In this document: one piece after another, positions 3,106 through 45,776 of the stretch | Layout of the letters: the number at the start of each line of letters is the position of its first letter | Position numbering within the stretch: position 1 is the stretch's first letter | Assembly (NCBI RefSeq): GCF_034479375.1 | Contig: NZ_CP140155.1 | Coordinates: forward strand, 4,626,501 to 4,690,500 | Source: Rhodopseudomonas palustris | GTDB taxonomy: Bacteria; Pseudomonadota; Alphaproteobacteria; Rhizobiales; Xanthobacteraceae | Length of the DNA stretch: 64,000 nt | Direction of reading: 5' to 3' | Notes under the pieces: model-generated | What the model saw: only the letters and a program-made list of their open reading frames with translations | The model's database searches: none | What the model was told of the DNA's origin: nothing | Made by a program: the position numbers and the translations under genes

Positions 3106-3208
3106 GTCATTCCGGGGCGCTCGCGCAAGCGAGCGAACCCGGAATCTGACGCGTGCAGAGCATCTCGGGATTCCGGGTTCGCGAGCTTTGCTCGCGCCCC
3201 GGAATGAC
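3106..3208. repeat. Interspersed palindromic repeat, family A (CATTCCGGGGCGC type)
   Basis: The outer arms GTCATTCCGGGGCGC and GCGCCCCGGAATGAC are inverted copies, and inner GAACCCGGAATC/GATTCCGGGTTC arms are also inverted. Related copies lie at 11853-11950, 25314-25413 and 45563-45710. All four are between genes. This copy separates the 3' ends of two convergent genes, where a transcript would fold into a long hairpin. Confidence 0.85.
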
Positions 3209-3217
3209 GTTGGAAAA

Positions 3218-11836: not shown

Positions 11837-11852
11837 GGGCTGTCCGATCGTT

Positions 11853-11950
11853 GTCATTCCGGGGCGCCGCGGAGCGGCGAACCTGGAATCTGATACGAGC
11901 AGAGCATCTCGAGATTCCGGGTTCGCGCCTGCGGCGCGCCCCGGAATGAC
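11853..11950. repeat. Interspersed palindromic repeat, family A
   Basis: GTCATTCCGGGGCGC at the left and GCGCCCCGGAATGAC at the right, with internal GAACCTGGAATC and GATTCCGGGTTC arms. It fills the gap between convergent pyrD and the MBL hydrolase and touches the latter's stop codon. Confidence 0.85.
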
Positions 11951-12684
11951 TACAACTCGACGATCAGCCCGTCGCTCGCGCCCTGGTGCGACACGCCGTC
12001 CAGCCTGTGCAGGACGTCATCGCCCATGTGGGTCAGGATCAGCCGCTTCGGGTTGATCTCGGGCAGGTGGGTCTCGAGTGTCTTCAGGCTGAGATGGTTC
12101 TTCACGTTGCGGTCGTAGGTGTAGGCTTCGCAGACGAACAAATCGGCATCGTGCGCCGCGGCGACCAGCGTATCGGTCCATTGCGTGTCGCCGCTATAGG
12201 CCAGGGTGCGGCCCCCGGCTTCGATGCGATACGCATAGAACGGCCCGCCGGAATCGCCGTGCACGACCGGAAACGGCGTCACCGTCACCGCGCCGAACGA
12301 CCGGGGCACGGCCGGCTCGAGCGTGATGACCTGCAGGTCGAAGGTCGGCTTGGTCGCGGACGAATGTTCGAACAGCGCTTCCATCAACCGCGTCAGGCGG
12401 ATGTCGATGCCGGGCGGGCCGGCGATCACCAGCGGCCGCTTGCGCTTGGCGAACTTCGCATCGAGCAACAGAAACGGCAGGCCGCCGAAATGGTCGCCGT
12501 GAAAATGGGTGATCAGGATCAGGTCGAGCGCATCGCGTGAAATGCCGTAGCGCTTCAGCGCGGGCAGCGACGTCGCGCCGCAGTCGATCAGGAAATTGAC
12601 GCTCTCGCCCGAGACGTGGAAGCAGGTGTTGAGCCGGCCGCCGGAACCGAGCGCATCGCCACAGCCGACAAATCGCAGTTGCAT
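11950..12684 (-). CDS. MBL-fold metal-dependent hydrolase (RNase Z-like)
   Basis: The 244-residue protein is a metallo-beta-lactamase fold hydrolase of the RNase Z/arylsulfatase-like branch: MQLRFVGCGDALGSGGRLNTCF at the start, the metal motif THFHGDHFGG at residues 59-68, VVHGDSG, AYSGDTQWT (bridging Asp) and LTHMGDD near the end. It lacks the long exosite arm of true tRNase Z and is shorter, so its substrate is uncertain; a phosphodiester or an ester are both possible. It is a single gene in convergent orientation to pyrD. Confidence 0.82.
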   Translation of the reverse strand: MQLRFVGCGDALGSGGRLNTCFHVSGESVNFLIDCGATSLPALKRYGISRDALDLILITHFHGDHFGGLPFLLLDAKFAKRKRPLVIAGPPGIDIRLTRLMEALFEHSSATKPTFDLQVITLEPAVPRSFGAVTVTPFPVVHGDSGGPFYAYRIEAGGRTLAYSGDTQWTDTLVAAAHDADLFVCEAYTYDRNVKNHLSLKTLETHLPEINPKRLILTHMGDDVLHRLDGVSHQGASDGLIVEL

Positions 12685-15476: not shown

Positions 15477-17378
15477 TCAATGGCCGAAGACGGCCTTGGC
15501 CGGCGGAATCGCGTTGTCGGCCTTCAGCATCCGCTCCAACGTCTCCAGCCGATCGGCGTCACGTGGCGGCTTGTCCCAGCGTAACCGGCTGATTCGCGGA
15601 AACCGCATCGCCACCCCGGACTTGTGCCGCGGCGAGCGCTGCAGTCCCTCGAACGCGACCTCCAGCACCAGGCCCTGATCCGGTTCGTGGACGACATGGC
15701 GGACCGGGCCGAACTTCTCGGTGGTGTTGCGGCGGACGAAACGGTCGATCTGCAGCAGCTCTTCATCGGTGAAGCCGAAATAGGCCTTGCCGACCGGGAC
15801 GAGCCGGTCGCCGCTATCGCCTTCGGTCCAGACCCCGAAAGTGTAGTCGGAGTAATAGGACGAGCGCTTGCCGTGGCCGCGCTGGGCGTACATCAGCACC
15901 GCGTCGATGATGTGCGGGTCGTGCTTCCACTTCCACCATTGGCCCTTCGGCCTGCCGGGCAGATACAGCGCGTCGCGCCGCTTCAGCATCACGCCCTCGA
16001 CCGCGTCGGCGTCGAGACCGGCGCCGGCGCTGGCCGGATCGCGCCGCGCTGCGCGCAGACCGTCCCAATCCCCGAACGCGACCCTCGGCGACAGATCGAC
16101 CTTCGGGTCGTCGAGCCGGGCGACGAACGCCTCCAGTCGAGCGCGGCGTTCGGCGAAGGGCCGCGTGCGCAGATCGTCGTCGCCGTCGCCGAGCAGGTCG
16201 TAAGCGCGCAGATGGATCGGATACTCCTTCGTCAGCTTCGGTGTCACCGACTTGCGGTTGAGCCGTTGCTGCAGCACGTTGAACGACTGCACCCGGCCTT
16301 CGCGCAGCACCAGCAGCTCGCCGTCGAGCGCGAACGAAGCATGACGCCGAAAAGTGTGAAGCGGTTTTCGGGCGACGTCATGCTTCGAATCAGAAGAATC
16401 TTGAAGCCGCAGCGATGGCAGCAGATCCGGAAAGCTTGGCGTGATGTCCTCGCCGCTGCGCGAATACAGCCGCACGACGGGGTCGCCGCTATCGCCGAGG
16501 CCGCTGACCGCCTGGACGCGGATGCCGTCCCATTTCCATTCGGCGATGTAGTCGGCCGGATTCATCGCGGCGAAGTCGGCGTCTTCGACTGCATGCGCCA
16601 GCATCACCGGACGAAACGGCGCCGGGTCGCGGTTGACCGGCTGAGGGCCGCGGCCCTCGAGCCAGGCGAACAGATCGAGATAGGGCGGTGCGAGGCCGGG
16701 CCAGATCAGTTCGACGTCGTGCGGGTCCTGGTTGCCGAGCGCCGCCGCAGCGGTCTTGGCCAGCCGCGCCGAGACGCCGATCCGCAAACCACCGGTGACC
16801 AGCTTCAGCAGCGCCCAGCGCCCGGTCTCGTCGAGTTCGTCGAGCCAGCGCGCGAGCTGCGCCGGCAGCTCGGCCTTGCCGAGACTGTGCAGCGTAGTGA
16901 CGATTTCCGTGAGAGACGGGGGCGGCGGGTTGTTGTGGCCCTCACCCCGAGCACGGCGAACTCCCTCCCCCCTTGCGGGGGAGGGTTGGGGTGGGGGGTG
17001 CCACGAGGATGGCGTCCCGTTGTCGACCCCCACCCCCGACCCCTCCCCGCAAGGGGGAGGGGAGGAGGCCGAGCCCGAGGGAGGGGAGTGAGCTGCCGCC
17101 TGCTTCGGAGCGGGCCACATCAGCGCGACCGTCTCCGATAGGTCGCCGACGTAATCATACGACAGGCCGAACAGCACCGGGTCGGTACGTTCGCTGATCA
17201 GAGCGCGGATCAGGCCGGGCTTGGCGTGGCGGAACGACAATGCGCCGGTCAGCGCGGCCAGCGCATAGCCACGATCCGGGTCTTCGGTGACGCGGAAGTA
17301 ACTGGTGATCAGCCGCAGCTTGGCGTTGCGGCCGGGCTCGTAGGCGAGACGGTCGAGCAGTTCGGCGAAGCGGTTCAT
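15477..17378 (-). CDS. ATP-dependent DNA ligase of the ligase-associated damage response set, with two repeat-derived insertions
   Basis: The 633-residue enzyme belongs to the group called cisplatin damage response ATP-dependent DNA ligase (TIGR04120). Domains run from an N-terminal ligase domain, through the nucleotidyltransferase core with the adenylated Lys in EWKWDGIRVQ, ALDGELLV and DAVEGVMLKRRD, to a C-terminal OB domain (VPVGKAYFGFTDEE). The ATG overlaps the exonuclease stop (ATGA), so the two are co-translated. Residues ~97-147 and ~331-348 are encoded by palindromic repeats and look foreign; removing both gives roughly the family's usual length. The ligase seals nicks in DNA repair together with the Lhr helicase, MBL exonuclease and PdeM. 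Confidence 0.92.
   Translation of the reverse strand: MNRFAELLDRLAYEPGRNAKLRLITSYFRVTEDPDRGYALAALTGALSFRHAKPGLIRALISERTDPVLFGLSYDYVGDLSETVALMWPAPKQAAAHSPPSGSASSPPPCGEGSGVGVDNGTPSSWHPPPQPSPARGEGVRRARGEGHNNPPPPSLTEIVTTLHSLGKAELPAQLARWLDELDETGRWALLKLVTGGLRIGVSARLAKTAAAALGNQDPHDVELIWPGLAPPYLDLFAWLEGRGPQPVNRDPAPFRPVMLAHAVEDADFAAMNPADYIAEWKWDGIRVQAVSGLGDSGDPVVRLYSRSGEDITPSFPDLLPSLRLQDSSDSKHDVARKPLHTFRRHASFALDGELLVLREGRVQSFNVLQQRLNRKSVTPKLTKEYPIHLRAYDLLGDGDDDLRTRPFAERRARLEAFVARLDDPKVDLSPRVAFGDWDGLRAARRDPASAGAGLDADAVEGVMLKRRDALYLPGRPKGQWWKWKHDPHIIDAVLMYAQRGHGKRSSYYSDYTFGVWTEGDSGDRLVPVGKAYFGFTDEELLQIDRFVRRNTTEKFGPVRHVVHEPDQGLVLEVAFEGLQRSPRHKSGVAMRFPRISRLRWDKPPRDADRLETLERMLKADNAIPPAKAVFGH
16336..16386. 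repeat. Palindromic repeat inside the ligase gene (RIME-like, GAAGCATGACG type)
   Basis: The outer arms GAAGCATGACG and CGTCATGCTTC are a perfect 11-bp inverted repeat. The inner arms CCGAAAA and TTTTCGG also pair. The element is translated in frame as part of an unusual stretch (DVARKPLHTFRRHAS) that interrupts the normal FPDLL...ALDGELLV spacing of the ligase core. It resembles the small mosaic palindromes common in Rhizobiales genomes. I see no second copy in the window. Confidence 0.8.
16939..17091. repeat. Palindromic repeat inside the ligase gene, family C (CTCCCC...GGGGAG type)
   Basis: It contains CCCCTTGCGGGGGAGGG, then CCCTCCCCGCAAGGGGGAGG, with the flanking CCCTCACCCC and GGGAGTGAG motifs found in the intergenic copies at 37308-37443, 39745-39890, 60058-60187 and 60967-61109. 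Inside the ligase it is read in frame as a Pro/Gly/Ser-rich insert (PPPCGEGSGVG, PSPARGEGVRRARGEG) between the N-terminal domain and the catalytic core. Confidence 0.85.
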
Positions 17379-21596: not shown

Positions 21597-21668
21597 TTCC
21601 GGATCGCATGGCCGGCGGAGCCACGCGATGATCTCGATTCCGACGCGACGAGTGCCTAGCTTGGCGAT

Positions 21669-24482
21669 GTGACCTTCGCCGATTCCGACGCCCCCCTCGA
21701 TCTGCTGCCCGACCGCTTTCGGCATTGGTTTGCCGCACGCGGCTGGGAGCCGCGCGCGCATCAGCTAGCGTTGCTGGAACGGGCTCGCGCGCGACGCTCG
21801 GCCCTGCTGATCGCCCCGACCGGCGCCGGCAAGACCCTGGCCGGGTTCCTGCCGACGCTGGTGGAGCTGAGCGAGGCGCCGCGGCCTAACCTCTCCCCGC
21901 TTGCGGGGAGAGGTCGACTGGCCGGCGCAGCCGGTCAGTCGGGTGAGGGGGCTGATGAGCCTCCATATTTCGAAGCAGTGCGCGATACGGAGGCGCCCCC
22001 TCATCCGTCGCGGCAAGCTGCGCTTGCCGCGCCACCTTCTCCCCGCACGCGGGGAGAAGGATTGATGCTGCGCGCCGGCGGCCTCCACACCCTCTACATC
22101 TCGCCGCTGAAGGCGCTGGCGGTCGACATCGCCCGCAATCTCGAAGCGCCGATCGCGCAGATGGATCTGCCGATCCGGGTCGAGACCCGCACCGGCGATA
22201 CCCCGGTGTCGCGGCGGACGCGGCAGCGCAAGTACCCGCCCGACATCCTGCTGACCACGCCGGAGCAGCTCGCGCTGCTGCTCGCCTCCGACGACGCGCC
22301 GTATCTGTTCGGCAGCTTGCGGCGGATCGTGCTCGACGAGCTGCACGCGCTGGTGACCTCGAAGCGCGGCGATCTGCTGTCGCTCGGGCTGGCGCGACTG
22401 TGGCGGATCGCGCCGCAACTCCGCGCCACCGGGCTGTCGGCGACGGTCGCCGATCCGGGCGAACTCGCGCGCTTCCTGGTGCCCCAACCCTCTCCCCTTG
22501 TGGGAGAGGGTGGCAGCCGCAGGCTGCCGGGTGAGGGGAACGACACGGGCGCCGACCTCGCGGCCCACCCCTCACCCCGGCCCTCTCCCGCAAGGGGAGA
22601 GGGAGAAGACAGGGCCGACATCGTCGTCGCCGGCGGTGCGGCGCAGCCGATCGTCGAAATGCTCGACACCAAAGAACGGCTGCCCTGGGCGGGCCATTCG
22701 GCGCGTCACGCGCTGGCCGAGATCTACGACCTGATCAAGGGCAACAAGACCACGCTGGTGTTCGTCAACACCCGCAGCCAGGCCGAGATGCTGTTCCAGG
22801 AACTCTGGCGCATGAACGACGACAACCTCGCGATCGCGCTGCATCACGGTTCGCTCGACGTCGCGCAGCGCCGTAAGGTCGAAGACGCAATGGCGGCGGG
22901 TCGACTGCGCGGCGTGGTGTGTACCTCGTCGCTCGATCTCGGCATCGACTGGGGCGACATCGATCTCGTGATCAATGTCGGCGCGCCGAAGGGAGCGTCG
23001 CGGCTGATGCAGCGGATCGGCCGCGCCAATCACCGCATCGACGAGGCGTCGCGTGCGGTGCTGGTGCCGGCCAACCGATTCGAAGTGCTGGAATGCGCCG
23101 CGGCGATCGCCGCCGTGGCCGAGAACGCGCAGGACACCCCGCCGCAGCGCAAGGGCGCGCTCGACGTGCTGGCGCAGCACATTCTCGGCTGCGCCTGCGG
23201 CGAGCCGTTCTTCGCCGACGATCTCTACGCCGAAGTGCGGAGCGCCGCGCCTTATGCCGACCTCGCCCGCGCCGATTTCGACGATACGCTCGATTTCGTC
23301 GCCACCGGCGGCTACGCGCTGAAGAGCTACGAGCGCTTCGCCCGCATCAGGCAGGACAAGCAGGGCCGCTGGCGCGTCGCCAATCCGAAGGTGCGGCAGG
23401 CCTATCGGCTGAATGTCGGCACCATCGTCGAGGAGGCGATGCTGAAGGTGAAGCTGGTGCGCTCCGCGCGGTCGAAAGGCAGCGGCGACACCGGCGCGAT
23501 CGCGCGCGGCGGCCGGATGCTCGGACAGATCGAGGAGTATTTCATCGAGGGGCTAACGCCCGGCGACACCTTCGTATTCGGCGGCGAGGTGGTGCGCTAC
23601 GAGGCGATGACGGAGGACCAGGTCTACGTCTCCCGCGCGCACGACAAGGACGCCCGGGTGCCGTCCTATATGGGCGGCAAGTTTCCGCTGTCGACTTACT
23701 TGGCCGAACGCGTCCGTGGCCTGCTCGCCGACAAGAAGACGTGGAAGGGCCTGCCCGAGCAGGTGCGCGACTGGCTGGCGCTGCAGACCAAGGCGTCGAA
23801 AGTGCCCGGCCGCAGCGAGCTGGTGGTCGAGACGTTTCCGCGCGCCGCCAAATACTATCTCGTCTGCTATCCGTTCGAAGGAAGGCTGGCGCATCAGACG
23901 CTCGGCATGCTGCTGACGCGGCGGCTGGAGCGCGCCCGCGCCCGACCGCTCGGCTTCGTCGCCAACGAATACGCGCTCGCGGTGTGGGGTCTCGGCGACA
24001 TGTCGCATATGATCCGGCAGGGCCGGCTCGATCTCGATGCGCTGTTCGATCCCGATATGCTGGGCGACGATCTCGAAGCCTGGCTCGCCGAATCGGCGCT
24101 GATGAAACGCACCTTCCGTTACGCGGCGATCATCTCGGGGCTGATCGCGCGGCGTTTCGTCGGCGAAGAAAAGTCGCGGCGGCAGGTACTGTTCTCGACC
24201 GACCTGGTCTACGACGTGCTCAACAAGCACCAGCCCGATCACGTGCTGCTGCGCGCCGCCCGCGCCGACGCCGCCACGGGGCTGCTCGATTTGCGCCGTC
24301 TCAGTGATATGCTGACGCGAATCAAGGGTCACATCGTCCACAAGGAACTCGACCGCGTCTCGCCGCTCGCGGTGCCGGTGATGCTGGAAATCGGCCGCGA
24401 AGCCGTGTACGGCGAGGCCTCCGACGAACTGCTCGCCGAAGCCGCCGACGAACTGGTGCGCGAGGCGATGGACACTCGATAG
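21669..24482 (+). CDS. lhr: Lhr-type DEXH helicase of the ligase-associated damage response set, with two repeat-derived insertions
   Basis: The 937-residue protein is a 3'-5' superfamily 2 helicase of the Lhr-core type (TIGR04121). Motif I APTGAGKT is near residue 49, motif II DELH and motif III LSATV (~residue 257) follow, then TLVFVNTRSQAE, CTSSLDLGIDWG and QRIGRANHR in RecA domain 2, and a winged-helix and Lhr C-terminal region to the end. GTG 21669 is the start. Residues ~74-130 (between motifs I and Ia) and ~273-313 (after motif III) are encoded by family C repeats and have the low-complexity look of PSPLVGEGGSRR. Without them the protein has about the usual family length. The helicase unwinds or remodels damaged nucleic acid for the partner nucleases and ligase. 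Confidence 0.93.
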   Translation: MTFADSDAPLDLLPDRFRHWFAARGWEPRAHQLALLERARARRSALLIAPTGAGKTLAGFLPTLVELSEAPRPNLSPLAGRGRLAGAAGQSGEGADEPPYFEAVRDTEAPPHPSRQAALAAPPSPRTRGEGLMLRAGGLHTLYISPLKALAVDIARNLEAPIAQMDLPIRVETRTGDTPVSRRTRQRKYPPDILLTTPEQLALLLASDDAPYLFGSLRRIVLDELHALVTSKRGDLLSLGLARLWRIAPQLRATGLSATVADPGELARFLVPQPSPLVGEGGSRRLPGEGNDTGADLAAHPSPRPSPARGEGEDRADIVVAGGAAQPIVEMLDTKERLPWAGHSARHALAEIYDLIKGNKTTLVFVNTRSQAEMLFQELWRMNDDNLAIALHHGSLDVAQRRKVEDAMAAGRLRGVVCTSSLDLGIDWGDIDLVINVGAPKGASRLMQRIGRANHRIDEASRAVLVPANRFEVLECAAAIAAVAENAQDTPPQRKGALDVLAQHILGCACGEPFFADDLYAEVRSAAPYADLARADFDDTLDFVATGGYALKSYERFARIRQDKQGRWRVANPKVRQAYRLNVGTIVEEAMLKVKLVRSARSKGSGDTGAIARGGRMLGQIEEYFIEGLTPGDTFVFGGEVVRYEAMTEDQVYVSRAHDKDARVPSYMGGKFPLSTYLAERVRGLLADKKTWKGLPEQVRDWLALQTKASKVPGRSELVVETFPRAAKYYLVCYPFEGRLAHQTLGMLLTRRLERARARPLGFVANEYALAVWGLGDMSHMIRQGRLDLDALFDPDMLGDDLEAWLAESALMKRTFRYAAIISGLIARRFVGEEKSRRQVLFSTDLVYDVLNKHQPDHVLLRAARADAATGLLDLRRLSDMLTRIKGHIVHKELDRVSPLAVPVMLEIGREAVYGEASDELLAEAADELVREAMDTR
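21889..22060. repeat. Family C palindromic repeat inside the lhr gene, copy 1
   Basis: CCTCTCCCCGCTTGCGGGGAGAGG near the left end (two short arms around CTTG), the central GTGAGGGGGC and GCCCCCTCA pair, and CTTCTCCCC/GGGGAGAAG at the right end are inverted repeats. The whole element stays in frame and adds about 57 residues between helicase motifs I and Ia. Confidence 0.88.
22487..22609. repeat. Family C palindromic repeat inside the lhr gene, copy 2
   Basis: CCCTCTCCCCTTGTGGGAGAGGG at left and CCCTCTCCCGCAAGGGGAGAGGG at right (each a short hairpin) with GGGTGAGGGG and CCCCTCACCC between. It is in frame, adding about 41 residues after motif III of the helicase. Confidence 0.88.
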
Positions 24483-24510
24483 ACGGCAGGATGCCGCGTT
24501 TCCGTTTTCC

Positions 24511-24597
24511 GTCATGCCCGGGCTCGTCCCGGGCATCCACGAAACCTGCGTTTCCCCGGGCCCATCGTGGATGGCCGGGACAAGCCCGGCCATGACG
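24511..24597. repeat. Family B palindromic repeat (GTCATGCCCGGGCT type)
   Basis: GTCATGCCCGGGCTCGTCCCGG at left and CCGGGACAAGCCCGGCCATGAC at right are inverted, with ATCCACG / CGTGGAT inside. It fills the space between the helicase stop and the PdeM start. A similar copy lies at 48611-48699. Confidence 0.85.
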
Positions 24598-25293
24598 ATG
24601 TTTGCTGATCTACTCCCGATCAACTCCTCCGTGGGACTATCGATTGCGGGCGCTACGTTCGCCGCCGATCTGTCCGGCGCGCTGTATTGGGAGGACGAGC
24701 GGCTGCTGGTCGTCTCCGACCTGCATCTGGAGAAGGGCTCGAGCTACGCGGTGCGCGGCGTGCTGCTGCCGCCTTACGACACCGTTGCCACGCTCGGCCG
24801 GCTCGGCGCCGTGGTCACGCGCTACAATCCGAAGACGGTGATTGCGCTCGGCGACAGTTTTCACGATCGCGACGCGCACGACCGGCTGTCTGACGCCAAC
24901 CGCGATATTGTCGCGGCATTGCAGGTGGGGCGCGACTGGATCTGGATCGCCGGCAATCATGATCCGGCGCTGCCCGCGAATCTCGGCGGCTGCGTCGCCG
25001 GCGAGGTCGCGCTCGGCGGCGTGATCTTCCGGCACGAGCCGACCGGCGCGCATGGCGAGATCGCCGGCCATCTGCACCCGAAGGCCCGCGTCAGTCGCCG
25101 CGGTCGCAGCGTCGAGCGGCGCTGCTTCGCCGGCGACGGCACGCGCGTGGTGATGCCGGCATTCGGGGCCTACACCGGAGGCCTCAATATCCGCGACGCA
25201 GCCTTCGCAAAGCTGTTCGGCGGCGCCGCCTTCATGGCTCATGTGCTCGGCGACAACCGCCTCCACGCCATCGCATCTTCGCGCTGCTGCTAA
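24598..25293 (+). CDS. pdeM: Ligase-associated DNA damage response endonuclease PdeM (metallophosphoesterase)
   Basis: The 231-residue protein is a calcineurin-like metallophosphoesterase of the TIGR04123 type. Metal motifs are VVSDLHLEKG, ALGDSFHD, AGNHDP, FRHEP and AGHLHPKA. I set the start at ATG 24598, giving MFADLLPINSSVGL, because everything upstream in frame is family B repeat; starts at 24592 or 24514 (inside the repeat) remain possible, and there is no clear ribosome site. In characterised relatives the enzyme is a Mn-dependent phosphodiesterase on DNA. It lies 115 nt after the helicase gene and is probably co-transcribed. Confidence 0.9.
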   Translation: MFADLLPINSSVGLSIAGATFAADLSGALYWEDERLLVVSDLHLEKGSSYAVRGVLLPPYDTVATLGRLGAVVTRYNPKTVIALGDSFHDRDAHDRLSDANRDIVAALQVGRDWIWIAGNHDPALPANLGGCVAGEVALGGVIFRHEPTGAHGEIAGHLHPKARVSRRGRSVERRCFAGDGTRVVMPAFGAYTGGLNIRDAAFAKLFGGAAFMAHVLGDNRLHAIASSRCC

Positions 25294-36091: not shown

Positions 36092-37300
<1,209 letters not shown>

Positions 37301-37307
37301 GTTCTTG

Positions 37308-37443
37308 CCCTCTCCCCTTGTGGGAGAGGGTGCCTGAGATGCGAAGCATCGAAGGCGGGTGAGGGGGCAGCTCCTCGCTCCGCCGCCCCCCTCACCCGGC
37401 GCCGACTTCGTCGGCGCCACCCTCTCCCACAAGGGGAGAGGGA
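37308..37443. repeat. Family C palindromic repeat, intergenic
   Basis: CCCTCTCCCCTTGTGGGAGAGGG at left, inverted CCCTCTCCCACAAGGGGAGAGGG at right, with GGGTGAGGGGGC / CCCCCTCACCC inside. It lies between the thiolase and FadB-like genes. Confidence 0.88.
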
Positions 37444-37496: not shown

Positions 37497-39713
37497 ATGA
37501 CCTTCAAGAACTTCAAGCTCGAGACCGACGCCGACGGCATTACGCTGGTGACCTGGGATCTGCCCGGCAAGTCGATGAACGTGCTGGACGCCGCGACCAT
37601 CGAGGAACTCGGCGCGATCGTCGAGCAGACCACCAAGGACGCCGCTGTGAAGGGCGTGGTGATCACCTCCGCCAAGGAGTCGTTCTGCGCCGGCGCCGAT
37701 CTGTCGATGCTGGAAACCATGAACAAGCAGTTCGCACAGATCCGGAAGGACAAGGGCGAAGAAGCCGCGCAACAGATGCTGTTCGACGAGAGCCGCAAGC
37801 TATCGCAGATCCTGCGCAGCATCGAGACCTCGGGCAAGCCCTGGGTCGCGGCGATCAACGGCCTGGCGCTGGGCGGCGGCTTCGAAGTGACGCTGGCCTG
37901 TCATCATCGTATCGCCGCGGACAATCCGAAGTCGCGGCTCGGCCTGCCGGAGATCAAAGTCGGCCTGTTCCCGGGCGGCGGTGGCACCCAGCGCATCGCC
38001 CGCATCGTCGATCCGCAGAACACCATGACGATTCTGCTCAAGGGCGATCAGCTCAAGCTCGACAAGGCCAAGGCGCTGAAGCTGGTCGACGCCATCGTGC
38101 CGGCCGACCAGATGATCTCGGCCGCCAAGGACTGGATCAAGGCCGGCGGCAAGGCGGTGGCGCCGTGGGACGAGAAGGGCTTCAAGCTGCCCGGCGGCCC
38201 GGTGTTCTCCAAGCAGGGCATGATGATGTTCCCGGCCGGCAACGCGATCTATCGCCGCGAGACCTACGACAACTATCCGGCCGCGCGCGCCATCATGAGC
38301 TGCGTCTATGAGGGCCTGCTGGTGCCGATGGATACGGCGCTGCGGATCGAGTCGCGCTACTTCGCCAAGGTGCTGCAGACCAAGGAAGCCGCGGCGATGA
38401 TCCGCAGCCTGTTCCTGTCGATGCAGGAGCTGAACAAGGGCGCGCGCCGTCCGCAGGGCGTGCCGCCGACCAAGGTCAAGAAGCTCGCCATCATCGGCGC
38501 CGGTTTCATGGGCGCCAGCGTCGGTTACGTCTCGGCCAAGGCCGGCATCGACGTGGTGCTGATCGATCGCGATCAGGAGAGCGCCGACAAGGGCAAGGCG
38601 CACTGCAAGAGCGTGATCGACGGCCTGATCGCCAAGGGTCGCGCCAAGCCGGCCGACGCCGAGGCGCTGATGTCGCGTATCACGGCGACGCCGGACTACA
38701 ACGCGATCTCGGATTGCGATCTGGTGATCGAGGCGGTGTTCGAGGATCGCAAGATCAAGGCCGAGACCTACGCCAAGGCGCAGCCGCTGTTGAAAGAAGG
38801 CGCGATCTTCGCCTCCAACACCTCGACGCTGCCGATCAACTCGCTGGCCGAAGAGTTCAAGGATCAGTCGAAATTCATCGGCATCCATTTCTTCTCGCCG
38901 GTCGAGAAGATGATGCTGGTCGAGGTCATCGTCGGCAAGAACACCGGCGACGTCGCGCTCGCGACCGCGCTCGACTACACCCGTCAGATCAACAAGACCC
39001 CGATCGTGGTCAACGATTCGCGCGGCTTCTTCGCCAACCGCTGCGTGCTGCGCTTCACCGCAGAAGGCCTCGAGATGCTGATGGAAGGCATCCCGGCGCC
39101 GATGATCGAGACCGCGGCGAAGATGGCCGGCATGCCGGTCGGGCCGCTGTCGCTCGCCGACGAGGTCGCGCTCGATCTGGTGCTCAAGATCATGAAGGCC
39201 ACCGAAGCCGATCTCGGCGAACAGGCGGTCGATCAGCAGCAGAAGAAGCTGATGGTCGAGATGGTCGAAAAGCAGGGCCGGTTCGGCCGCAAGAACGCCA
39301 AGGGCTTCTACGACTATCCGGAAAAGGGCAAGGGACAGAAGGCGCTGTGGGCCGGCATCGGCGCGCTGCAGCCCAAGCACGTCGATCCGGATACGGTCGA
39401 TGTCGAGGAACTGAAGCAGCGCTTCCTGGTGGTGCAGGCGGTCGAAGCCGCGCGCACCGTCGAGGATCACGTCATCACCGATCCGCGCGAGGCCGATGTC
39501 GGCTCGATCCTCGGCTTCGGCTTCGCCCCCTTCACCGGCGGCACGCTGAGCTACATCGACTTCATGGGCACCAAGGAATTCGTGGCGCTCTGCCACAAGC
39601 TGGAAGGCAAATACGGCTCGCGCTTCACGCCGCCGAAGCTCTTGGAAGACATGGCCAAGACCGGCGAGACCTTCTACCAGCGCTTCGCCCCGAAGAAGCA
39701 GGCGGCGGCGTAA
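37497..39713 (+). CDS. FadB-like bifunctional enoyl-CoA hydratase / 3-hydroxyacyl-CoA dehydrogenase
   Basis: The 738-residue protein joins a crotonase domain (~1-290; SFCAGADLSML oxyanion loop, LGLPEIKVGLFPGGGGTQRI with a catalytic Glu) to two 3-hydroxyacyl-CoA dehydrogenase domains (from ~315; NAD site IGAGFMGASVGYVSA, catalytic block IGIHFFSPVEKMMLVEV and SRGFFANR). It hydrates trans-2-enoyl-CoA and oxidises the product to 3-ketoacyl-CoA for the thiolase encoded just upstream. AAGGAG gives a strong ribosome site. Confidence 0.95.
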   Translation: MTFKNFKLETDADGITLVTWDLPGKSMNVLDAATIEELGAIVEQTTKDAAVKGVVITSAKESFCAGADLSMLETMNKQFAQIRKDKGEEAAQQMLFDESRKLSQILRSIETSGKPWVAAINGLALGGGFEVTLACHHRIAADNPKSRLGLPEIKVGLFPGGGGTQRIARIVDPQNTMTILLKGDQLKLDKAKALKLVDAIVPADQMISAAKDWIKAGGKAVAPWDEKGFKLPGGPVFSKQGMMMFPAGNAIYRRETYDNYPAARAIMSCVYEGLLVPMDTALRIESRYFAKVLQTKEAAAMIRSLFLSMQELNKGARRPQGVPPTKVKKLAIIGAGFMGASVGYVSAKAGIDVVLIDRDQESADKGKAHCKSVIDGLIAKGRAKPADAEALMSRITATPDYNAISDCDLVIEAVFEDRKIKAETYAKAQPLLKEGAIFASNTSTLPINSLAEEFKDQSKFIGIHFFSPVEKMMLVEVIVGKNTGDVALATALDYTRQINKTPIVVNDSRGFFANRCVLRFTAEGLEMLMEGIPAPMIETAAKMAGMPVGPLSLADEVALDLVLKIMKATEADLGEQAVDQQQKKLMVEMVEKQGRFGRKNAKGFYDYPEKGKGQKALWAGIGALQPKHVDPDTVDVEELKQRFLVVQAVEAARTVEDHVITDPREADVGSILGFGFAPFTGGTLSYIDFMGTKEFVALCHKLEGKYGSRFTPPKLLEDMAKTGETFYQRFAPKKQAAA

Positions 39714-39744
39714 GCGCTGCAACCGCTTCACCAAGCCCGGTGCT

Positions 39745-39890
39745 AACCTCTCCCTGCGCGCGGGGAGAGGTCGACCGGCAGAGCGCAGCGAAGCCGGTCG
39801 GGTGAGGGGGCGTTTCCACGCAGCCGAGAGTCAGTGCTCGCGTCGCCCCTCACCCCACCCCTCTCCCCGCAAGAGCGGGGCGAGGGAGAG
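39745..39890. repeat. Family C palindromic repeat, intergenic
   Basis: AACCTCTCCCTGCGCGCGGGGAGAGG at left, CCCTCTCCCCGC...GCGGGGCGAGGGAGAG at right, with GGGTGAGGGGGC and GCCCCTCACCCC between. Together with two further elements it fills the 364-nt gap between convergent operons; no gene is visible there. Confidence 0.85.
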
Positions 39891-39939
39891 CGCTGCGGTT
39901 GGTGTGAGGCTTTGCTTCGGTTGAACAGGACGAAAGTCA

Positions 39940-39969
39940 AAGGGCCCGGATCATTGCGATCCGGCCCTT
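39940..39969. terminator. Hairpin between convergent operons, possible bidirectional terminator
   Basis: AAGGGCC(C)GGATC pairs with GATCCGGCCCTT around an ATTGC loop, with one bulged C. The flanking T and A runs are short, so termination is plausible but not certain. Confidence 0.5.
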
Positions 39970-39984
39970 CGCATTTGAGCAGTT

Positions 39985-40066
39985 CGTCATTGCGAGGAGC
40001 GAAGCGACGAAGCAATCCAGGCTGGTGCGTGAAGCGCTGGATTGCTTCGCTCTGCTCGCAATGACG
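39985..40066. repeat. Palindromic repeat, family D (CGTCATTGCGAGGAGC type)
   Basis: CGTCATTGCGAGGAGCGAAGC at left and GCTTCGCTCTGCTCGCAATGACG at right are inverted, with GCAATCCAG / CTGGATTGC inside. It lies next to the 3' end of the GST gene. Confidence 0.85.
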
Positions 40067-40077
40067 CTGAAGCGCGC

Positions 40078-40692
40078 TCACGCCTTCTGCAGCAGCCCCT
40101 CGCTCTGCAACGCGGCCTGCACCTGCGGCCGCTCGCCGACGCGGGCCTTGAAGGCGTTGAGATTGGCGAAGGCGGAGGTGTCGATCTTCATCCGCTCGGC
40201 CCAGCTCAGGATCACGAACAGATAGCCGTCCGCCACGGTGAATTGCGAGCCCATCAGGTAGTCTTTGCCGGCGAGCTGCTTGTCCGCATAGGCGAAATAT
40301 TTGGCGATGCGGTCCTTGAAGAACTGCTTGGCATCGTCGCCGAGCACCGGGGAGAACAGCGGGCCGAAGCTCTTGTGCAGGTCGGTCGAAATGAAATTCA
40401 GCCATTCCTGCAGCCGGTAGCGCTCGGGTGTGCCGTTCTCGGGTGCGAGCTTGCCGCCGCCGACCTTGTCGGCGATCATCTGCACGATCGCCGGGCCTTC
40501 GGTCAGCACGCTGCCGTCGTCGAGGCCGAGCGCCGGGACGGAGCCTTTCGGGTTGATCTGCGTATAGTCGTCGCCATTCTCCAGCTTCTTCGCCCGGAGG
40601 TCGACCTTGACCAGCTCGAACGGCAGGCCGGACTCGCTGAGCGCGATATGCGGCGACAGCGAACACGCTCCGGGTGAATAATACAGCTTCAT
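40078..40692 (-). CDS. Glutathione S-transferase family protein
   Basis: The 204-residue protein has the thioredoxin-fold N-domain (MKLYYSPGACSLSPHIALSESG, with the GACS catalytic region of bacterial beta-like GSTs; GSVPALGLDDGSVLTEGPAI with the cis-Pro) and the helical C-domain. ATG 40692 follows AGGAGG; eight upstream residues in frame are not used. It conjugates or reduces electrophiles with glutathione. It diverges from a MarR gene, and gshA lies nearby. Confidence 0.9.
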   Translation of the reverse strand: MKLYYSPGACSLSPHIALSESGLPFELVKVDLRAKKLENGDDYTQINPKGSVPALGLDDGSVLTEGPAIVQMIADKVGGGKLAPENGTPERYRLQEWLNFISTDLHKSFGPLFSPVLGDDAKQFFKDRIAKYFAYADKQLAGKDYLMGSQFTVADGYLFVILSWAERMKIDTSAFANLNAFKARVGERPQVQAALQSEGLLQKA

Positions 40693-40766
40693 CGACGATT
40701 CCTCCTGAAGGATCATTGGAAAGGCGCGCGGGCGCGATTAAATGCGCGTGCATGGAAGAGTCAAGA

Positions 40767-45562: not shown

Positions 45563-45710
45563 GTCATTCCGGGGCGGCGCGCAGCGGCGAACCCGGAATC
45601 CATAACCACCGCCCTCTGCGTTGAGGCATGGGTTGCGGCGCTCCGGCTCGCAGCGAGTCCAGGGGCTATGGATTCCGGGTTCGCGAGCTACGCTCGCGCC
45701 CCGGAATGAC
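45563..45710. repeat. Interspersed palindromic repeat, family A (long copy)
   Basis: GTCATTCCGGGGCGG at left and CGCCCCGGAATGAC at right, with GAACCCGGAATCCATA / TATGGATTCCGGGTTC inside. At 148 nt it is longer than the other three copies because of a central insert. Confidence 0.85.
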
Positions 45711-45776
45711 GAACGAGAGGTGGAGCGCGGCGCGCTCAGCATGACGGACTTTGCCGATGCGCTTCGAGCCGACGGC

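Follow-up and report, generated by a model that had tools for sequence, protein, structure and literature searches.

Palindromic repeat elements in frame within two loops of an Lhr-core helicase gene of Rhodopseudomonas palustris

The helicase gene and its elements

The window, the whole stretch of 64,000 nucleotides of R. palustris DNA that was analysed (contig NZ_CP140155.1), contains an ORF belonging to the ligase-associated DEXH-box (Lhr-core) helicases of TIGR04121 (1086.9 bits against a curated cut-off of 850 for the NCBIfam profile), the family that a first-pass annotation had named. The ORF has DEAD, Helicase_C, WH_Lhr and DEAD_assoc domains and the Lhr-core plan of two RecA domains, a winged helix and domain 4, and runs as a single uninterrupted frame (940 codons) across two palindromic inserts, here called site 1 and site 2. 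The features are as follows:

21669 to 24482, + strand: ligase-associated DEXH-box (Lhr-core) helicase ORF, 937 aa, GTG start (TIGR04121 and Pfam domains)
21822 to 21836, + strand: GAGKT, residues 52-56, which we take to be helicase motif I; upstream border of site 1, invariant in alignment A1
about 21888 to 22062, + strand: site 1, whole palindromic element of two inverted units, residues ~74-131 (sequence, unit comparison, folding)
21888 to 21951, + strand: left unit of site 1, with conserved hairpin CCTCTCCCCGC/GCGGGGAGAGG, variable-stem hairpin and tail GGTGAGGGGG
21994 to 22062, - strand: right unit of site 1, inverted
22092 to 22118, + strand: LYISPLKAL, residues 142-150, presumably the motif Ia region; downstream border of site 1 (alignment)
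22437 to 22445, + strand: SAT, residues 257-259, taken here as motif III; upstream of site 2 (alignment)
about 22484 to 22614, + strand: site 2, another palindromic element, from a sister family, residues ~273-312, after motif III (sequence, unit comparison, folding, BLAST)
24514 to 25293, + strand: ligase-associated endonuclease PdeM ORF (TIGR04123, 221.7 bits against a cut-off of 150)
37308 to 37442, strand unassigned: relative of the elements, intergenic
39740 to 39879, strand unassigned: relative of site 1, past the stop of a FadJ-like gene
near 16962-17061, 60058 and 61065: further unit hits

PdeM, directly downstream of Lhr, is a neighbour from the ligase-associated set. By eye, a palindromic repeat occupies 24483-24620, between the two genes. 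The TIGR04123 match starts at residue 43 of the PdeM ORF, and because a start at ATG 24514 would place ~42 residues, partly repeat-coded, ahead of the family match, the true PdeM start is probably later.

Site 1 adds ~58 residues between GAGKT and LYISPLKAL, so the first-pass annotation was right to see a complete palindromic repeat in frame between motifs I and Ia (21889-22060 by its coordinates) and close in its count of ~57 residues. Each unit consists of a conserved hairpin, then a variable-stem hairpin, then a tail such as GGTGAGGGGG. Folded as RNA, site 1 reaches -127.8 kcal/mol compared to -79.0 kcal/mol in shuffles (z -10.86), with 0 of 200 shuffles as stable. The nine Rfam hits in 21600-22700 (E up to 1) were all below the gathering score and were taken as chance. 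BLAST against the genome itself returned at least 62 hits, several per place (best 40 of 117 candidates scored), and the best genome paralogue among the candidates scored covered 64 of 181 bases at 89% identity.

Site 2, absent from the first-pass annotation, shares the ORF and frame of site 1 and is built from two units of the sister family (CCCTCTCCCC...GGGAGAGGG), the right unit without the second hairpin. It also folds more stably than all of 200 shuffles (z -8.13), and BLAST returned at least 64 hits in the genome, several per place (best 40 of 168 candidates scored). Copies of the left unit at three further places in the genome match it at 96-98% over 51-53 nt; with two genome copies the identity is 98%, so site 2 may be younger than site 1. 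In the AlphaFold2 model, the two longest stretches of low pLDDT, 72-134 and 277-312, coincide with sites 1 and 2, and both inserts are predicted to be disordered; for site 1, structural modelling had been proposed as a check, and the insert is indeed of low confidence.

The Lhr elements are multi-copy inverted dimers, as expected of REPs. The 38 stretches around site-1 hits and the window together contain 48 places after merging, of which one is a double count (47 distinct) and two lie in Lhr. Of the frames that run through the places outside Lhr, 20 were scanned, for the most part long ones; a Pfam domain was present in two of these, and in neither did it contain the element. Two of the other copies in the window, which had been described as intergenic, were checked. 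This holds for 37308-37442, which lies between a thiolase gene (36092-37300) and the FadJ-like gene (37497-39713) and is crossed only by minus-strand ORFs, none of them profile-scanned. It holds less simply for 39740-39879, which lies past the FadJ-like stop but is reached by two ORFs of at least 180 aa, 38714-39805, another frame of the FadJ-like gene that was excluded from the profile scan, and 39743-40753 (-), which had no NCBIfam matches. In three genomes (L149, L150, L151), a site-1-like element lies inside open frames without any Pfam domain, and these frames are probably not genes. The Y1/RAYT transposase profile PF01797 had no match in the R. palustris genome itself, with a positive control in five of 14 genomes, and a mobiliser may since have been lost from the genome.

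Frame, filling and age of the two loops

In the window and in 75 of the 80 relatives, a single open frame takes in the four anchor motifs that flank the two loops. The remaining five loci were left out of the count, four because the contig end cuts into the protein, so that the locus begins within it (L003, L041, L047, L049), and the fifth for its run of N (L008). A frameshift considered in the last of these (genome G007) was rejected, the break being the run of N. Site-1 loops of type A have a length that is a multiple of 3 and are free of stops in the frame used in 15 of 15 cases, with stops in 13 of 15 for the second frame and 15 of 15 for the third. Comparison of orthologous loci, as the first-pass annotation had advised, found loops that are filled, trimmed or empty among the relatives, with the frame kept wherever it is readable.

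At site 1, 76 loops were read (the window and 75 loci), of which 18 are long and 17 of these carry a repeat signature; at site 2, 80 were read (the window and 79 loci), with 13 long and 10 of these carrying a signature. The long loops without a signature are those of L055 at site 1 and of L006, L012 and L059 at site 2, and in a protein set biased by the retrieval of 16 of its 129 entries through the insert itself, they amount to 12 of 60 at site 1 and 7 of 24 at site 2. Folding energy was used because a single-stem palindrome score separated long from short loops poorly. With 50 shuffles for each loop, the median z was -6.8 for long (n = 17) and 0.0 for short (n = 56) loops at site 1, loops <60 nt being left out, and -4.8 (n = 13) and -0.2 (n = 67) at site 2. 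Weak values in long loops at site 1 (L043, -1.0; L013, -2.7) and site 2 (L012, -2.6; L001, -2.2; L003, -0.9; L028, 0.4; L006, 1.2) are tentatively read as decayed or trimmed copies.

By eye, the site-1 loops hold type A in Rhodopseudomonas, type D in L007, L010 and L011, type C in L014 and L016, type G in L013 and type B in L024, the fuzzy classifier merging type D (L007, L010, L011, P0076) into type A; L005, a close relative of the type-D loci, has type A. Types B and C recur at site 2, along with a different palindrome in Mesorhizobium (L059), and types E and F are known from peptides only. Types A-D, all built on a plan of a CT-rich hairpin and a tail rich in GGTG or GGGG, may represent branches of a single superfamily. 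Searched against its own genome, the L016 insert DNA gives at least 85 matches (best 40 of 70 candidates scored), and the L010 insert DNA gives 11 in its own. In L005, L010 and L011, what appears to be an older loop end, VSTGRxVQRTGG, persists downstream of the insert and is similar to the loop end of L018 (VSPTGRDVQRTGG), whose loop is empty.

Because other genera have different repeat types in these two loops, or no repeat at all, the loops appear to have been filled repeatedly. Counted against the other labelled rows only, the tree needs four changes for 'site 1 only', four for 'site 2 only' and two for 'both', of which starred branches force four, three and two, and we infer several gains at each site, in a number that is not exact.

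Within Rhodopseudomonas, site 1 is present in Lhr, at least partly, in 13 of 16 genomes, with no site-1 match in the Lhr of G009, G010 and G012. Across nine related rows, the whole site-1 loop has a pN of 0.192 and a pS of 0.293 (ratio 0.65), compared to 0.031 and 0.305 (ratio 0.10) in the adjoining 120 codons, while the codons of the element alone have a pN of 0.178 and a pS of 0.228 (ratio 0.78; codon bootstrap 0.60-1.04). Judged by this distribution and by the pN/pS of loop, element and flank, site 1 is old in the genus and inherited with the gene, and its amino acids are nearly unconstrained. Most of site 1 is missing from L001 and L050, despite their position in a starred five-row clade with carriers, and by eye L001 seems to retain a trace of the final hairpin. 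Neither gene conversion nor a recent re-insertion at site 1 is favoured, as the pS of the loop is close to that of the flank, though that of the element alone is lower, and as the best genome paralogue among the candidates scored extends over 64 of 181 bases.

Other host proteins

When the site-1 insert was searched against proteins of ~515-1640 aa, 16 of 481 candidates scored E up to 1, and every one of the 16 has an Lhr-type domain set. Repeats also occur in the frame of other proteins:

PolA, linker between the 5'-3' and 3'-5' exonuclease domains, repeats of at least two families: L169 (this genome), L153, L158, L160, L161, L170-L184
UvrB, N-terminal linker: L197 (this genome), L185-L200
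UvrD-type helicase from a different genus, in-frame palindromic element between DEYQD and GDDDQS: L224:256-3117
PDH E2, translated element in the linker that follows the lipoyl domain: L210:1846-3261

Repeat-like peptides were seen by eye in the PolA linker of all 16 genus genomes and in the UvrB linker of nine of 16, with none visible in the other seven. By eye, the PolA insert of the R. palustris genome itself has the appearance of an inverted dimer tagged with CGTC, with a stem of ~9 bp followed by CCA; the insert is shared with G010, and a different family occupies the linker in G001, G008, G012 and G013. Besides PolA, the proteins matched in the search with this insert, all weakly (E 0.02 to 4.5), were dihydrolipoyl dehydrogenase (E3), a helicase and 5-oxoprolinase.

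Of 47 regions retrieved, 30 were scanned, and seven (L214-L220) have stops in the matching frame. Pfam scans of 50 repeat-bearing open frames left 39 without a domain, probably spurious frames of GC-rich DNA, and 11 with one: PolA in three cases (L153, L158, L161), UvrB (L157), UvrD (L224), PDH E2 (L210) and five frames in which the repeat lies ahead of the domain (L201 and L165, both Alpha-E, L226, L135 and L146). The hosts with domains in the same frame are Lhr (two sites), PolA, UvrB, UvrD and PDH E2. The host search used two peptide queries only, so that other repeat types would be missed except by chance, and in this census, partial for every genome, repair genes are dominant among the hosts seen without being the sole ones, and linkers are common.

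Probably tolerated loops, rival readings and precedent

Very probably, the inserts are tolerated disordered loops derived from translated REP-like elements, with selection acting mainly on the frame. On this reading, two surface loops in the first RecA domain of the Lhr-core helicase would each have taken up a REP-like palindromic element, and both inserts, we infer from sequence, are translated and remain part of the protein, flexible and rich in Pro, Gly and Arg, in a helicase that still works. Selection would remove frame-breaking insertions and indels, with the residues hardly mattering, and because both loops would tolerate many kinds of in-frame insert, lineages would have filled them with different repeat types that were later trimmed or lost. 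The first-pass annotation had offered a tolerated surface loop or a processed insert; the kept frame, near-neutral residues and low pLDDT favour tolerance, and processing gained no support. Against tolerance stand the several long loops whose folding gains little or nothing over their shuffles, at L043 and L013 for site 1 and L003, L028, L006, L001 and L012 for site 2, and the at least partial retention of the element in Lhr of 13 of the 16 genomes of the genus, a persistence that might not be expected of a useless loop.

A further point against plain tolerance is the rather low pS of the element (0.228 compared to 0.305 in the flank) together with covariation in its stems, from which something may be acting on the element at the DNA or RNA level. 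The palindrome could be kept by such selection, through mRNA stability, pausing or protein binding, with the peptide as a by-product, an explanation that we consider unlikely. Across 14 rows, the left-unit stems of site 1 are paired in 93.8% of cells, with 15 cells of two-sided change compared to 5.7 in shuffles, a number that none of 500 shuffles reached and that exceeds the slid controls, and by eye one covarying pair swaps Q for K. However, the six stem pairs with two-sided change were reached by 51 of 500 shuffles and the further pair types by 314 of 500, kinship among rows inflates the scores, and some of the 14, such as L004, L022 and L005, may be non-orthologous. Template-switch repair of imperfect palindromes would be expected to leave the same pattern, and such repair, conversion or nucleic-acid selection could each yield kept stem pairing; partly deleted copies also persist (L006, L028).

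The dominance of repair genes among the hosts, which plain tolerance does not predict, suits the idea that the inserts are selected because they tune repair enzymes, hence the recurrence of Lhr, PolA, UvrB and UvrD, a speculation raised in PMC3733652. Long retention in the genus and the host list in the consulted text of that survey (UvrABC, UvrD/Rep, PolA, RecBCD, DnaE2) point the same way. Selection for tuning is nevertheless rather improbable, as the residues of the element are near neutral, the loops are differently filled, trimmed or lost in relatives, and hosts outside repair occur (the PDH E2 linker and, at E 0.02 to 4.5, E3 and 5-oxoprolinase), all within a partial census. The related proposal that the two Lhr loops and the PolA and UvrB linkers are recurrent landing sites with a non-accidental repair bias, reflecting either preferential insertion or favoured repair-modulating disorder, is a conjecture to which we give little credence.

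That the insert is absent from the final protein, through ribosomal bypass or later excision, has in its favour only the placement of 58 residues near the ATP-binding motif and is highly improbable, since the frame and freedom from stops kept in readable relatives would be needless under bypass or RNA removal and Rfam was empty above the gathering score across 21600-22700. An annotation or sequencing artefact, or a decaying gene, can practically be dismissed: although repeats do break assemblies (L003, L041, G014:C225 and G010:C15 begin inside an insert), the open frame and the presence of site 1 in other single-contig genomes (G004, G005, G006, G008) contradict the sequencing error or frameshift that the first-pass annotation had entertained, and the core adjoining site 1, with a pN/pS of 0.10, is not that of a decaying gene.

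The preferred reading of tolerated loops has precedents. Rickettsia palindromic elements (RPE) were reportedly described by Ogata et al. in 2000. In the parts of PMC2229807 and PMC10969869 used here, which also review other elements, the Rickettsia palindromes are 100-150 bp long and lie in frame in unrelated proteins, apparently tolerated; the Lhr palindromes are likewise in frame in a conserved gene, a likeness of description, but their host is free-living and GC-rich. In-frame insertion had been called rare in other bacteria, which is too strong, as in-frame REPs in repair genes are already known: as far as the text consulted goes, Di Nocera et al. 2013 (PMC3733652) found GTAG/CGTC REPs inside genes of several species, many of them for replication or repair, in a survey that included R. 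palustris and Bradyrhizobium, suggested that REPs are neutral in flexible linkers and loops, and raised mutator effects. The Lhr elements resemble those REPs as short palindromes and inverted dimers in frame in a repair gene, but by eye neither tag ends their units. In recB of two Xanthomonas, the single such case given in that text, different REPs lie at nearly the same position, whereas here two Lhr loops appear to have been filled repeatedly across genera. The enterobacterial RU-1/RU-2/RU-3 small repeats, with open frames inside annotated genes (Delihas 2007, PMC2759123, in the portion used), have other hosts and were proposed as a source of new proteins, in contrast to the loop fillers in Lhr.

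The name 'lhr' is absent from the main text of PMC3733652, none of the matches listed from the open-access literature, in which Lhr classes are treated by PMC8301817 (seen in part), concerned palindromic inserts in Lhr, and Lhr as a host with repeated filling of the same loops is apparently new. The 2013 survey saw translated palindromes in repair genes and left their meaning undecided; homologous loops that are filled, empty or trimmed, in a helicase with a solved relative, make it a direct question whether such inserts are inert or change repair. The case illustrates how repeat DNA would turn into disordered protein and last while hardly anything except the frame is under selection. Br-REP1/Br-REP2 of Bradyrhizobium and Rhodopseudomonas, palindromic, multi-copy and intergenic in the available part of PMC5082802, share hosts with the Lhr elements but differ in consensus; by eye, they resemble instead other palindromic families of the window, at 3133-3209, 11850-11953 and 45563-45711.
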